Shown here: positions 5,433-19,017 of the stretch, in pieces
How positions within the stretch are numbered: the stretch's first letter is position 1
Layout of the letters: each line of letters opens with the position of its first letter
Source: an uncultured Lachnospiraceae bacterium
GTDB taxonomy: Bacteria; Bacillota; Clostridia; Lachnospirales; Lachnospiraceae
Length of the DNA stretch: 36,547 nt
Reading direction: 5' to 3'
Assembly (NCBI GenBank): GCA_947177925.1
Contig: CAMWWJ010000002.1
Span: 1 to 36,547, forward strand
Translations under genes and position numbers: made by a program
Notes under the pieces: generated by a model
Told to the model about the DNA's origin: nothing
What the model saw: only the letters and a program-made list of their open reading frames with translations
Database searches by the model: none

Positions 5433-5464
5433 GCGGCAGGGAAGCCGCATGAAATTCAAGGAGG
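5433..5464 (+). promoter_or_regulatory. Candidate CsrA-binding hairpin plus SD site in the flagellin 1 leader
   Basis: GCGGC-AGGGAA-GCCGC hairpin with GGA in a 6-nt loop, then AAGGAGG Shine-Dalgarno; same layout as the B. subtilis hag leader. Confidence 0.5.
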
Positions 5465-5472
5465 AATATATT

Positions 5473-6288
5473 ATGGTAGTACAACACAATCTTAGAGCAA
5501 TGAACTCAAACAGAATGTTAGGATTAACAGCATCATCTCAGTCTAAGTCAACAGAGAAATTATCTTCTGGTTATAAGATCAACCGTGCAGCAGACGATGC
5601 AGCAGGATTAGCAATTTCCGAGAAGATGAGACGTCAGATCAGAGGACTTACACAGGCTACTGCAAATGCACAGGATGGTATTTCCATGGTGCAGACAGCA
5701 GAAGGTGCGTTAAACGAAGTTCACGACATGTTACAACGTATGAATGAGCTTGCTGTAAAGGCAGCTACAGGTACAGAGCAGTCTGAAGACCGTTCTTACA
5801 TCAACCAGGAAGTAACTGCATTAAAGGCAGAAATCGACAGAGTTGCAGCAACAACTACTTTCAATGAGTTGAACTTATTGAATCAGACAACTACTTTCAG
5901 TCTTCAGGTTGGTTCTGAAAGCGCTTCTGTAAACCAGATTGATGTAACGGTTGCAGCTATGAACACAACTGGACTTAGCATTAACGGTACAACAGTAGAT
6001 ACTGTAGCCAATGCAAAAACTGCTATTGATTCAGTTAAGAAGGCAATCACAGCATTGAATAAGCAACGTTCCGATCTTGGTGCACAGCAGAACCGTTTAG
6101 AGCATACAGTAAACAACTTGAACAACGTTGTTGAAAACACCACATCAGCAGAATCTGCTATTCGTGATACAGATATGGCAACTGAAATGGTTAGATATGC
6201 AAACAACAACATTCTTGCACAGGCAGGTCAGGCAATGTTGGCACAGTCTAATCAGGCTAACCAGGGCGTATTATCCTTACTTCAGTAA
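5473..6288 (+). CDS. Flagellin, copy 1
   Basis: MVVQHNLRAMNSNRMLGLTASSQSKSTEKLSSGYKINRAADDAAGLAISEKMRRQIRGL and C-terminal MVRYANNNILAQAGQAMLAQSNQANQGVLSLLQ; SD AAGGAGG upstream of the ATG at 5473. Confidence 0.98.
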   Translation: MVVQHNLRAMNSNRMLGLTASSQSKSTEKLSSGYKINRAADDAAGLAISEKMRRQIRGLTQATANAQDGISMVQTAEGALNEVHDMLQRMNELAVKAATGTEQSEDRSYINQEVTALKAEIDRVAATTTFNELNLLNQTTTFSLQVGSESASVNQIDVTVAAMNTTGLSINGTTVDTVANAKTAIDSVKKAITALNKQRSDLGAQQNRLEHTVNNLNNVVENTTSAESAIRDTDMATEMVRYANNNILAQAGQAMLAQSNQANQGVLSLLQ

Positions 6289-6567: not shown

Positions 6568-6599
6568 GCGGCAGGGAAGCCGCATGAAATTCAAGGAGG
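6568..6599 (+). promoter_or_regulatory. Candidate CsrA-binding hairpin plus SD site in the flagellin 2 leader
   Basis: Same sequence as 5433-5464 at a constant offset of 1135 nt. Confidence 0.5.
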
Positions 6600-6607
6600 A
6601 ATATATT

Positions 6608-7423
6608 ATGGTAGTACAACACAATCTTAGAGCAATGAACTCAAACAGAATGTTAGGATTAACAGCATCATCTCAGTCTAAGTCAACAGAGAAATTATCT
6701 TCTGGTTATAAGATCAACCGTGCAGCAGACGATGCAGCAGGATTAGCAATTTCCGAGAAGATGAGACGTCAGATCAGAGGACTTACACAGGCTACTGCAA
6801 ATGCACAGGATGGTATTTCCATGGTGCAGACAGCAGAAGGTGCGTTAAACGAAGTTCACGACATGTTACAACGTATGAATGAGCTTGCTGTAAAGGCAGC
6901 TACAGGTACAGAGCAGTCTGAAGACCGTTCTTACATCAACCAGGAAGTAACTGCATTAAAGGCAGAAATCGACAGAGTTGCAGCAACAACTACTTTCAAT
7001 GAGTTGAACTTATTGAATCAGACAACTACTTTCAGTCTTCAGGTTGGTTCTGAAAGCGCTTCTGTAAACCAGATTGATGTAACGGTTGCAGCTATGAACA
7101 CAACTGGACTTAGCATTAACGGTACAACAGTAGATACTGTAGCCAATGCAAAAACTGCTATTGATTCAGTTAAGAAGGCAATCACAGCATTGAATAAGCA
7201 ACGTTCCGATCTTGGTGCACAGCAGAACCGTTTAGAGCATACAGTAAACAACTTGAACAACGTTGTTGAAAACACCACATCAGCAGAATCTGCTATTCGT
7301 GATACAGATATGGCAACTGAAATGGTTAGATATGCAAACAACAACATTCTTGCACAGGCAGGTCAGGCAATGTTGGCACAGTCTAATCAGGCTAACCAGG
7401 GCGTATTATCCTTACTTCAGTAA
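6608..7423 (+). CDS. Flagellin, copy 2 (protein identical to copy 1)
   Basis: Identical translated sequence in the ORF track; own promoter, leader and terminator. Confidence 0.98.
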   Translation: MVVQHNLRAMNSNRMLGLTASSQSKSTEKLSSGYKINRAADDAAGLAISEKMRRQIRGLTQATANAQDGISMVQTAEGALNEVHDMLQRMNELAVKAATGTEQSEDRSYINQEVTALKAEIDRVAATTTFNELNLLNQTTTFSLQVGSESASVNQIDVTVAAMNTTGLSINGTTVDTVANAKTAIDSVKKAITALNKQRSDLGAQQNRLEHTVNNLNNVVENTTSAESAIRDTDMATEMVRYANNNILAQAGQAMLAQSNQANQGVLSLLQ

Positions 7424-15021: not shown

Positions 15022-15190
15022 GTGGATTCTCCTTTAATTTCATAAATGAACGTATATTTAGTGGCTTTTCATGAAAAGTATTATATAATAGTTTCCCAAA
15101 AAAGAAAAGATGGGATTTTCATGGAAAGCGGTTTGCATATGTGATAAAATGATTTTCAGGGGAATCGTAGAAAAGAAAGTAGACATAAAT

Positions 15191-15217
15191 TAAGGATATT
15201 TTAAAATATGCCGATAT
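15191..15217 (+). promoter_or_regulatory. Sigma-28/SigD-type promoter upstream of the sugar/radical SAM operon
   Basis: TAAG-N15-GCCGATAT; perfect -10 and 3/4 match to the -35 at canonical spacing. Confidence 0.7.
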
Positions 15218-15273
15218 ATACTCATATAATATGTTTCATGGATGAAATGAATGAAAAACAGGGAGGTTGCAAT

Positions 15274-15330
15274 ATGGATACGATACAAGAGCAGATAAAA
15301 GAGGGAAAGTAGTTATCTGCTCTTATTTTG
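15274..15330 (+). promoter_or_regulatory. Leader mini-ORF (MDTIQEQIKEGK) overlapping a strong hairpin; candidate attenuator or sRNA 3' end
   Basis: GGGAGG RBS, ATG at 15274, TAG at 15310-15312; perfect 12-bp stem AAGAGCAGATAA (15287-15298)/TTATCTGCTCTT (15313-15324) followed by ATTTTG. Confidence 0.55.
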
Positions 15331-15380
15331 TATATTGCAAATTTTCATAAAAAGAAAAGATATAAAGGAAGAGGAAAAAT

Positions 15381-16205
15381 ATGTGTTTATTTATTACAGC
15401 AGAAATAGGAATTAATCATAATGGTGATTTAAAAATCGCAAAGGAATTGATCGACCTTGCAGTAGAAGCTGGATGTGATGCTGTGAAGTTTCAAAAAAGA
15501 ACCATTGATAAGGTCTATACGCAGGAGTATCTGGCAGGTGAGAGAATCAGCCCATGGGGAACTACTCAAAGGGAACAGAAGGAAGGACTGGAATTTGGGT
15601 TGAAAGAGTATCAGGAAATTGACAGATATTGTAAAGAAAAAGGAATTGAGTGGTTTGCTTCAGCCTGGGATTTGGATTCGCAGAAATTTCTGCAGCAGTT
15701 TGATTTAAAATATAATAAGGTTGCATCAGCCATGTTGGTAAACGACGAGCTGTTAGAAGAGATTGCCAATGAGAAAAAGTATACCTTCATTGCAACCGGA
15801 ATGAGCACTTATGACGAAATCGATCATGTAGTAGATATTTTTAAAAAATATGATTGCCCCTTTGAACTGATGCATTGTAACAGCACCTACCCTATGAAAG
15901 AAGAAGATGCCAATTTAAAGGTAATGTACCAGTTAAAAGAAAGATACGGCTGTAAGGTCGGTTACAGCGGGCATGAGGAAGGAAACTTAGTCTGCACTTG
16001 CGCAGCGGCAATGGGGGCCACATCCATAGAAAGGCATATCACGTTGGACAAGACCATGTATGGAAGCGATCAGAAAGCATCGATTGAGCCAAGGGAGCTT
16101 AAGGAGCTGGTAAGGACGATCAGGGAAGTAGAAAAGATTCTCGGAACTGGAGAAAAGCTTCTGTCAGAGGCAGAGCAGGAAGTAAAGGCAAAGTTAAGAG
16201 GATAA
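15381..16205 (+). CDS. NeuB/LegI/PseI-family ulosonic acid synthase-like protein lacking the C-terminal SAF/antifreeze region
   Basis: FITAEIGINHNGDLKIAKELIDLAVEAGCDAVKFQKRT; ATGMSTYDEI; MHCNSTYPM; GYSGHEEG; ERHITLDKTMYGSDQKAS; only 274 aa. Confidence 0.88.
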   Translation: MCLFITAEIGINHNGDLKIAKELIDLAVEAGCDAVKFQKRTIDKVYTQEYLAGERISPWGTTQREQKEGLEFGLKEYQEIDRYCKEKGIEWFASAWDLDSQKFLQQFDLKYNKVASAMLVNDELLEEIANEKKYTFIATGMSTYDEIDHVVDIFKKYDCPFELMHCNSTYPMKEEDANLKVMYQLKERYGCKVGYSGHEEGNLVCTCAAAMGATSIERHITLDKTMYGSDQKASIEPRELKELVRTIREVEKILGTGEKLLSEAEQEVKAKLRG

Positions 16206-16208
16206 GAC

Positions 16209-17285
16209 ATGATAAAGCTGGTTATTTTTGATATAGATGGAGTCATAACCGATGGCTCCATTATTGTTGATGTAGCAGGAAGAGAGCAAAAAAAAATAAA
16301 TTTAAAAGATGTGGATGCCATTTTCCAGATAAAAAAGGATGGTTATCGGTTGGCTGCCATAACGGGAGAAGATTCAGAGATTGTAAATTATTTTGAGCAG
16401 AGATTCCCGTGGGATTATTTTTACAGAGGCAATAAGAGTAAGACGGATGCCATGAAAGAAATACAGCAGAAAGAGAATCTTTCAAGCAGGGAAATATGCT
16501 ACGTGGGAGATGGAAAGTATGATATAGCCCCCCTTGCTTATGCAGGGCTTGGAATCTGCCCAAGGGATGCCATTGACAAGGCAAAAGAGGCGGCAGATGT
16601 GATTTTACAAAAGGGTGGTGGACAAGGCTGTCTGTGGGAATTGATTGATATCTTAAAAAGATATAATAATAAAGAGGTTCCAGAAAACTATTTTTACCAA
16701 AGACTAGCTGAGCATACGAATATCTTCAAAGAAATGGGCTCTGATATGGAGCTGATACAAAAGGTAATGGGTCTGGCAGAAGATATTTATAACATTCTTC
16801 GAAACGGAGGAAGGCTGTTTTTATGTGGAAATGGAGGAAGTGCAGCAGATGCTCAGCATATTGCCACAGAGTTCATCAGCCGCTTCTTTCATGAGCGGCC
16901 CGCATTGAATGCAGAGGCGCTGACGGTAAATACATCTACCTTGACTGCAATCGGCAATGATTATAGCTATGAACGGATTTTTGTGAGGCAATTGGAAGCA
17001 AAAGCGCAGAAGGGCGATGTGCTGATTGGGATTTCCACCAGTGGGAAATCCAAGAATGTGATGGAAGCATTAAAATATGGAAGAGATCATGGAATGAAGA
17101 CTGCTATGTGGATGGGAAATTTTGATTCTGCACAGGTGAAAGAATTTTGTGATTATGTTATAAGAGTACCTTCTGATATTACCCCAAGGATACAGGAAGC
17201 CCATATTTTTATTGGACATACTCTGGCGGAATTTGTGGAACAGAAGGTTGTTTTGGAGGAAAATCGGGATGGTAAAAGTATCTGA
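16209..17285 (+). CDS. Fusion protein: KdsC/YrbI-like HAD phosphatase + GmhA-like SIS isomerase
   Basis: N-term FDIDGVITDGSIIVD...ITGEDSEIV...CYVGDGKYDIAPLAYAGLGICPRDA; C-term LFLCGNGGSAADAQHIATEFISRF...GISTSGKSKNVMEAL. Confidence 0.88.
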   Translation: MIKLVIFDIDGVITDGSIIVDVAGREQKKINLKDVDAIFQIKKDGYRLAAITGEDSEIVNYFEQRFPWDYFYRGNKSKTDAMKEIQQKENLSSREICYVGDGKYDIAPLAYAGLGICPRDAIDKAKEAADVILQKGGGQGCLWELIDILKRYNNKEVPENYFYQRLAEHTNIFKEMGSDMELIQKVMGLAEDIYNILRNGGRLFLCGNGGSAADAQHIATEFISRFFHERPALNAEALTVNTSTLTAIGNDYSYERIFVRQLEAKAQKGDVLIGISTSGKSKNVMEALKYGRDHGMKTAMWMGNFDSAQVKEFCDYVIRVPSDITPRIQEAHIFIGHTLAEFVEQKVVLEENRDGKSI

Positions 17286-19017
17286 TTATGTCATGGAGTT
17301 TCTAAAGGAAAAGGGGATAAAGGAAATCTTTATGCTGCCGGGTGGCGGCGCTATGCATCTGCTTGACTCTTTGGGAAAATCTGGCATTGAGTATATTTGT
17401 TTTCAACATGAACAGGGAGCTGCCATTGCGGCAGAAGCCTATGGGCAGCATACAAATGAACCGGGGTGTCTTTTGGTCACATCTGGTCCGGGCGCCACAA
17501 ATGCCATAACAGGTGTTACTGCAGGCTGGATCGATTCCACACCGATGTTTGTTATATCAGGGCAATCCAAAAGGGCGGATTTAGTGGGAGACAAGCAGGT
17601 TAGGCAGATTGGCTCGCAAGAAGTTCAGATAATTGATATGGTAAAACCCATTACCAAATATGCAGTGCAGATTATGGAACCGGCAGAGATTCGATATCAT
17701 TTGGAAAGAGCCTATTATGAATGTACTAACGGACGTCCGGGACCTGTATGGCTTTCCATTCCTTTAGATGTACAGGGAGCCATCATTGATGAAGTGAATC
17801 TGAAGGGATTTTTACCAGAGGAAGTCAGAAAAAGCTGTATTTCCAATGATGTTTTGAAGGTAGTGGATTTGTTAAAGGACGCAAAAGCGCCTCTGTTTAT
17901 AGCAGGGAACGGTATTAAGCTTTCTGGAGCAACGGAAATATTCTATCAGCTTTTAGAACAAATAAACGTGCCGGTTTTAACTACGTGGAAGACCATTGAC
18001 ATGTTTGCTGAGGATAATCCGGTTTATGTAGGACATCCGGGCATTATGGGCGATCGAGGAGCAAATAAAATTTTACAGAAAGCCGATTTGCTGATTTCGT
18101 TAGGAAGTCGGTTAGATACCAGCATTACTGCATTTAATGATGCACTTTTTGGAAAGAATGCGAAAAAAGTAATTGTAGATATAGATGTACACGAAATAAA
18201 CCGGATGCAAATGAAAAAGGAAGTGGAAATCGTTTCGGATGCAGGGGAGTTTCTAGCTTGTCTGACAGAGGTCATTGGGAAAGAAAGCTTACCGGACTGG
18301 AATGAATGGCTTACTTCTTGTAAGGAGCTTAGGGCTGGCTATCCACTTGTTACGGATAAGCACAGAGATACAGGAGATTATGTAAGCGCTTATTATTTTA
18401 TTGATGAACTTTGTAAGGTGCTTAGGGCAGATGATGTAATTGTACCGGAAAGCTCCGGTGGAGCAGGAGAAATTACTTATCAGGCATTTCAGATAAAAAA
18501 AGGACAGAAGATGAAAAATGCAGCAGGATTGGGATCTATGGGTTTTGGTCTGCCTTATTCCATTGGTTCCTGTATTGCCAATGACAAAAGGAGAACTGTT
18601 TTAATCAATGGAGATGGTGCGTTTACCTTAAATATTCAGGAATTAGAGACTATGCATCGATTAAAGCTGCCAATTAAGATGTTTATCTTAAGCAACGGCG
18701 GATATGCCAGCATAAGAAGCATGCAGCGGGGAAATTTTGAAGGCAGATATGTGGCGAGCAGTGAGGACAGCGGATTTACGATTCCGGATATCAGTGCAGT
18801 GGCAAAGGCTTATGGCTTTCAAACCTGTTCCATGAAAAGTAATGAAGAAATGCTTCAAATGCTGCCTAAGATTATGGCAGATGATGAGCCGTTGCTTTGT
18901 GAAGTGTTTGTTTCACCGGATGAAACGGTTTGGCCGAGAGTAAAGGCTGTAGTTCTGCCGGACGGGGGCATGAAGTCGGGAGAGCTGGAGAATATGTGGC
19001 CTTATGAAGAAGAATAA
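17269..19017 (+). CDS. Thiamine-pyrophosphate-dependent enzyme, acetolactate synthase-like
   Basis: ATG at 17269 with TTGGAGGAAAA upstream; FQHEQGAAIAAEAYG, LVTSGPGATNAITGV, NGDGAFTLNIQELETMHRLKLPIKMFILSNGGYASIR (TPP motif). Confidence 0.9.
   Translation: MVKVSDYVMEFLKEKGIKEIFMLPGGGAMHLLDSLGKSGIEYICFQHEQGAAIAAEAYGQHTNEPGCLLVTSGPGATNAITGVTAGWIDSTPMFVISGQSKRADLVGDKQVRQIGSQEVQIIDMVKPITKYAVQIMEPAEIRYHLERAYYECTNGRPGPVWLSIPLDVQGAIIDEVNLKGFLPEEVRKSCISNDVLKVVDLLKDAKAPLFIAGNGIKLSGATEIFYQLLEQINVPVLTTWKTIDMFAEDNPVYVGHPGIMGDRGANKILQKADLLISLGSRLDTSITAFNDALFGKNAKKVIVDIDVHEINRMQMKKEVEIVSDAGEFLACLTEVIGKESLPDWNEWLTSCKELRAGYPLVTDKHRDTGDYVSAYYFIDELCKVLRADDVIVPESSGGAGEITYQAFQIKKGQKMKNAAGLGSMGFGLPYSIGSCIANDKRRTVLINGDGAFTLNIQELETMHRLKLPIKMFILSNGGYASIRSMQRGNFEGRYVASSEDSGFTIPDISAVAKAYGFQTCSMKSNEEMLQMLPKIMADDEPLLCEVFVSPDETVWPRVKAVVLPDGGMKSGELENMWPYEEE

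Follow-up and report, generated by a model that had tools for sequence, protein, structure and literature searches.

A putative flagellin-type CsrA site on the mini-ORF of a nonulosonate operon leader in Lachnospiraceae: a possible translation-dependent attenuator

How the supply of flagellin sugars is matched to the synthesis of flagellin is little understood in Clostridia. The question is raised anew by a short leader in the DNA analysed here (the window, a stretch of 36,547 nucleotides from an uncultured Lachnospiraceae bacterium), where a strong ribosome-binding site and a short ORF run into a large hairpin between a flagellar-type promoter and a nonulosonate synthase gene. The original prediction took this arrangement for a translation-coupled attenuator or an sRNA of about 100 nt. 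What, then, would such a leader respond to, and what would it control? The features needed to follow the argument are these:

15190..15217, + strand: SigD-type promoter, TTAA-N16-GCCGATAT, near-identical in the related genomes G002, G003 and G004; a FliA/SigD gene is present in the genome
15233..15248, + strand: putative CsrA-type site BS1, the hairpin GTTTC-AUGGAU-GAAAT with an ANGGAN hexaloop and a C-G closing pair, an exact CANGGANG
15260..15266, + strand: Shine-Dalgarno sequence (SD) of the mini-ORF, AGGGAGG, overlapping a second GGA (BS2); invariant in four genomes
15267..15340, + strand: large hairpin, outer and inner stems; paired in 100% of alignment cells
15274..15312, + strand: mini-ORF of 12 codons, MDTIQEQIKEGK and a stop; start kept, frame and peptide variable
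15341..15345, + strand: AUUUU tail after the large hairpin, terminator-like; the conserved block ends here
15381..16205, + strand: neuB-family nonulosonate synthase (PF03102, E = 4.6e-75), leading the operon in the window genome and G003
17269..19017, + strand: ilvB-like TPP enzyme, third gene of the window's operon and, in G004 and G002, the first to follow the leader

The elements first described at this locus are all there, the SigD-type promoter and the ribosome-binding site with its 12-codon ORF included. The inner stem is a perfect 12-bp helix of AAGAGCAGATAA (15287-15298) with TTATCTGCTCTT (15313-15324), enclosing a 14-nt loop (15299-15312) at whose end the stop codon TAG of the mini-ORF sits (15310-15312), and ATTTTG follows directly 3' of it (15325-15330). 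The outer stem pairs TTGCAATAT (15267-15275) with ATATTGCAA (15332-15340) and takes in part of the mini-ORF AUG. Hairpin, mini-ORF and promoter are thus present beyond chance: the hairpin region (86 nt) has a minimum free energy of -25.2 kcal/mol (z = -5.33), equalled by 0 of 200 shuffles, and only one other perfect hairpin of at least 12 bp (loop up to 20 nt) occurs in the 36.5-kb window, with none in eight dinucleotide shuffles of it. By two simple measures, the leader hairpin and its tail are comparable in strength to the local flagellin terminators (-25.1 kcal/mol and a tail score of -3.3, against -14.7 kcal/mol and -2.8/-3.1). A simple consensus terminator scan made no call at the leader hairpin, the loop being too long for it, and the U-run is short (4-7). 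A search of the leader against Rfam gave no match above the gathering score.

Two other features of the region may be recorded here. Most of the promoter spacer is filled by a perfect 14-nt palindrome, ATATTTTAAAATAT (15196-15209), kept in four genomes and possibly an operator. The operon also encodes a fusion of a HAD phosphatase with a SIS sugar isomerase domain (16209-17285).

Of the six genomes examined in the genus, four carry the leader: that of the window, G002, G003 and G004. The contig scan places three of the relatives as Lachnospiraceae/Robinsoniella MAGs. It stands ahead of neuB in the window genome and G003, and ahead of the ilvB-like gene in the other two. In G001, the ilvB-like gene lies behind a DUF1919 gene and the leader is absent, and therefore the leader is dispensable. 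The DUF1919 gene heads the operon in G001, precedes the leader in G002 and is missing from the window (L054 / L042), so that this part of the operon is often rearranged. G003 has a second copy of the leader's promoter half 26 kb downstream (L011:1501-1561, 97% over 61 nt), which then gives way to unrelated sequence, possibly a recombination footprint of the glycosylation island.

Outside the genus the leader element was not found. A covariance model run over 397 genomes of the family gave one weak match there (G084, L026), an intergenic palindrome that is unrelated and is hit on either strand; an exact-pattern scan of contigs returned three same-genus genomes and two unrelated single matches; and in other genera the relatives of neuB/ilvB had no leader combining a SigD promoter with a CANGGANG hairpin.

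Within the four genomes, conservation starts at the SigD-type -35 element, extends through the hairpin and ends right after AAUUUU. How strong it is depends on the comparison. Against G004, the leader evolves far slower than the neighbouring coding DNA, with 3/108 mismatches as compared with 328/1756 in ilvB (Fisher p = 1.7e-6) and 94/705 in the adjacent divergent gene (p = 7e-4). The contrast is weaker against G002 (10/106, with 316/1756 in ilvB; p = 0.02) and absent against G003, where the leader changes no slower than ilvB. It is worth asking, then, whether this could be a non-regulatory 5' UTR kept simply by recent common descent. The restriction to four genomes of one genus, the G001 operon that does without the leader and the G003 comparison would all suit such an explanation; the G004 contrast and the stems that remain paired speak against it, and we consider it improbable.

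The three helices (BS1, outer and 12-bp) are paired in 100% of the cells of the four-sequence alignment, while slid partners reach 36-51%. BS1 is invariant except for a G-U/A-U change at its outermost pair, and the five substitutions in the stems of the large hairpin all lead to wobble pairs; altogether, six pairs show a one-sided change, every one to G-U or A-U. The original prediction had looked to covariation across relatives as a check. With no two-sided compensatory change among the four sequences, the stem changes appear consistent with pairing and fall short of covariation in the strict sense.

What is conserved about the mini-ORF, judging from the alignment, seems to be its initiation and not its product. 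The SD (GGGAGG), the ATG and the 7-nt spacing between them are unchanged in all four genomes, and conservation in close relatives, by which the original prediction would stand or fall, thus holds for hairpin, SD and start codon but not for frame and peptide. A 5-nt indel (a GATAC tandem repeat) shifts the frame, so that the peptides read MDTIQEQIKEGK in the window, MGTIQEQIKEVK in G003, MGTRADKRGKVVICFYFVYCKFFYCR in G004 and MSIRADERWKVVICSCFVYCEFYCCLH in G002, with lengths of 12, 12, 26 and 27 codons and longer frames that are unrelated in sequence. We therefore rejected a leader-peptide attenuator of the trp/erm type. All four frames traverse the 5' arm and loop of the hairpin.

A strong SD followed by a variable ORF and a conserved hairpin would also fit an effect on mRNA stability that involves no termination: a ribosome or CsrA sitting at the SD near the 5' end, backed by the large stem, would shield the operon mRNA from degradation. 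Stabilisers of this kind with a strong 5' SD are known in Bacillus. We think this explanation quite improbable, as it accounts neither for the AUUUU tail nor for an ORF that runs through the 5' arm in four genomes.

Could translation of the mini-ORF be coupled to that of the next gene, as first supposed? The conserved hairpin and ribosome-binding site are in keeping with a role for translation, but the coupling is not borne out. The mini-ORF ends at 15312, about 70 nt from the neuB ATG at 15381, and the gap to ilvB in the relatives is about 92-110 nt, distances on which translational coupling or reinitiation was rejected; the large hairpin stops at 15340 and leaves the neuB SD (15365-15375) free. 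Attenuation in the opposite sense was also considered: translation of the mini-ORF would release the 3' arm CUCUUAUUUU, allow it to base-pair with the neuB SD (AAGGAAGAGGAAAAAU) and so repress neuB. When the path of the mini-ORF is blocked, the predicted folds of the window and G003 leaders do rearrange downstream of the 3' arm. Complementarity to purine-rich SDs is generic, however, and the SD pairing is lost in the ilvB-led genomes though the hairpin is equally conserved there. Sequestration of the neuB SD by the freed arm was rejected on this last ground, and opposite-sense attenuation as a whole is very improbable.

If the start of translation is what matters, the next question is what could govern it. 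The original prediction had likened the 14-nt loop of the large hairpin to the AGGGAA loop of the flagellin leaders. The likeness pointed to CsrA but to the wrong loop: AGGGAA in the large loop is variable (AGGTAA in G003, with GGA lost, and ATGGAA in G002), and the counterpart of the flagellin hairpin is the hexaloop hairpin at 15233-15248, which sits 26 nt 5' of the mini-ORF ATG. The flagellin leaders in the window are the following:

5433..5468, + strand: flagellin 1 leader, hairpin GCGGC-AGGGAA-GCCGC (CANGGANG) with an SD GGA 20 nt downstream
6568..6603, + strand: flagellin 2 leader, hairpin and SD identical to those of flagellin 1

This hairpin and SD are kept in G002, G004 and G005 and partly in G003, where the contig ends. 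The tandem flagellin genes themselves (5449-6288 and 6584-7423) are identical over 840 nt with near-identical leaders, which suggests a recent duplication or gene conversion.

We scanned for the shared layout, defined as a CANGGANG hexaloop hairpin, an SD GGA 14-30 nt further on and a start codon. The window holds three matches on the + strand (the two flagellin leaders and the leader of the neuB operon) and none on the - strand, and about 363 kb of loci, some of them overlapping, gave only flagellin leaders and copies of the neuB/ilvB-operon leader. As background, the layout occurs 5 times per 3 Mb of Markov sequence and in 0.015% of leader shuffles. By count alone, GGA is not significantly enriched in the leader, and ANGGA is mildly over-represented (p 0.01-0.08). 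When the isolated RNA is folded, part of the SD is base-paired, and the pair that closes the hexaloop forms with a probability of only 0.22-0.74.

The apical hexaloop form CANGGANG has been described for CsrA/RsmE, and the GGA hexaloops of the Campylobacter jejuni flaA leader are 21 nt apart (PMC4894983). In Bacillus subtilis, hag is repressed by CsrA through two leader sites, one of them on the SD (PMC7652899), with BS1 quoted as A51-A55 and BS2 as C75-G82 (as cited in PMC8523840); a hag-like pair of sites has been proposed for Clostridioides difficile fliC (PMC8523840). In our leader, the GGA of the BS1 loop and that of the SD are separated by 21-22 nt, a distance that a CsrA dimer can bridge; a spacing of 22 nt, being near those of flaA and hag, therefore counts for control by CsrA. 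The genome encodes csrA-fliW adjoining flgL, plus FliA/SigD, and the sequence elements of a CsrA-regulated leader of the hag/flaA type are found: a loop GGA, an SD GGA within reach, and both csrA and fliW. The putative CsrA site is well supported by these motifs, and CsrA probably targets the leader in one way or another. Directly upstream of another flagellin gene lies a second csrA-like gene, divergent in sequence (L017:1498-1767).

A conserved hairpin, a conserved start, a variable peptide and a flagellin-type CsrA site together lead us to favour a SigD-driven, CsrA-gated, translation-dependent attenuator, to which we give just short of an even chance. That CsrA binds, that the mini-ORF is translated, that transcription terminates and in which direction the effect runs are here read from sequence features. 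A CsrA dimer would contact both the hairpin with the AUGGAU hexaloop and the mini-ORF SD at its GGA, as on the flagellin leaders, and, to go by the architecture of the site, would block initiation. While FliW holds CsrA, ribosomes would enter the mini-ORF during transcription and cover the 5' arm, whatever the peptide; the large hairpin could then not form and the operon would be transcribed. When flagellin is in excess and occupies FliW, free CsrA would leave the mini-ORF untranslated, and the hairpin would close over the AUG as a terminator-like block, with the short leader RNA accumulating and less of the NeuB/IlvB-type enzyme being made. CsrA on BS1 and the SD should be compatible with the closed hairpin, and a translating ribosome should not. 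By these steps, flagellin sugar synthesis would follow flagellin synthesis. The attenuation output itself is inferred.

The main rival makes the RNA itself the product. The conserved block, found ahead of different genes, corresponds to a transcription unit that begins at the promoter and ends with the AUUUU tail, and would fit a SigD-dependent RNA of about 120 nt ending at the hairpin; both halves of the first suggestion, translation-responsive leader and sRNA, are alive. Acting in trans, such an RNA could titrate CsrA as a sponge; the mini-ORF would then be no more than a side effect of the SD-like GGA, and the operon would be read by leak-through. Three or four ANGGA motifs are found in each of the four leaders, and the C. 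jejuni flaA leader, which titrates CsrA, and the Salmonella fim leader offer precedents (PMC4894983). Only one of the motifs, however, lies in a hexaloop hairpin, where several canonical sites would be expected of a sponge and CsrB/RsmZ have many; a sponge needs neither the full ribosome-binding site nor the constant 7-nt spacing and ATG that are kept; and the leader always heads the same operon and is never free-standing. We regard the sponge as unlikely, and the CsrA-gated attenuator as the better account.

Our literature search, incomplete in its coverage, found no paper that ties CsrA to a uORF preceding a nonulosonate operon, and several known systems resemble the leader in part. Like B. 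subtilis hag, it belongs to a flagellar mRNA that depends on SigD, in a csrA-fliW genome, and has two GGA sites spaced by about 20-23 nt, of which the downstream one lies on the SD; the difference is that the start codon here belongs to a non-conserved mini-ORF followed by a 12-bp plus 9-bp hairpin. The C. jejuni flaA leader is alike in its GGA spacing, its flagellar regulon and a possible titration of CsrA, but it controls flagellin itself, and a mini-ORF with an attenuator-like hairpin is not described there (PMC4894983). With sigma-28-dependent flagellar sRNAs such as CjNC1 and CjNC4 of C. jejuni (PMC4626219), the parallel is that our leader could also yield a short RNA from its flagellar-type promoter; the features conserved in our leader are a CsrA-type site and a ribosome-binding site.

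The closest known mechanism is that of E. coli iraD, in which CsrA represses a short uORF (ORF27/idlP) through sites that include one on its SD, and the output depends on translation of the uORF (PMC5574718). The iraD uORF, however, overlaps the iraD start with its stop and acts by translational coupling, whereas the uORF here ends about 70 nt short of the gene, with a large terminator-like hairpin in between; neither a stop at the next start nor a uORF unwinding an SD-sequestering hairpin is found in our leader. Our broader proposal is that the CsrA-FliW flagellin checkpoint extends to a flagellin-glycosylation operon, through a CsrA site of the flagellin type placed on a mini-ORF that is itself expendable: its translation, and not its product, would control a transcription attenuator. 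This would place a CsrA-gated uORF attenuator outside the Gammaproteobacteria; we hold the proposal tentatively, at somewhat less than even odds. If it is true, the filament protein and the sugars that decorate it come under one checkpoint through one type of RNA site, and the leader is a small and mutable element for testing CsrA-gated control, one in which CsrA governs transcription of an operon by way of a throw-away mini-ORF, near to E. coli iraD and yet distinct from it.
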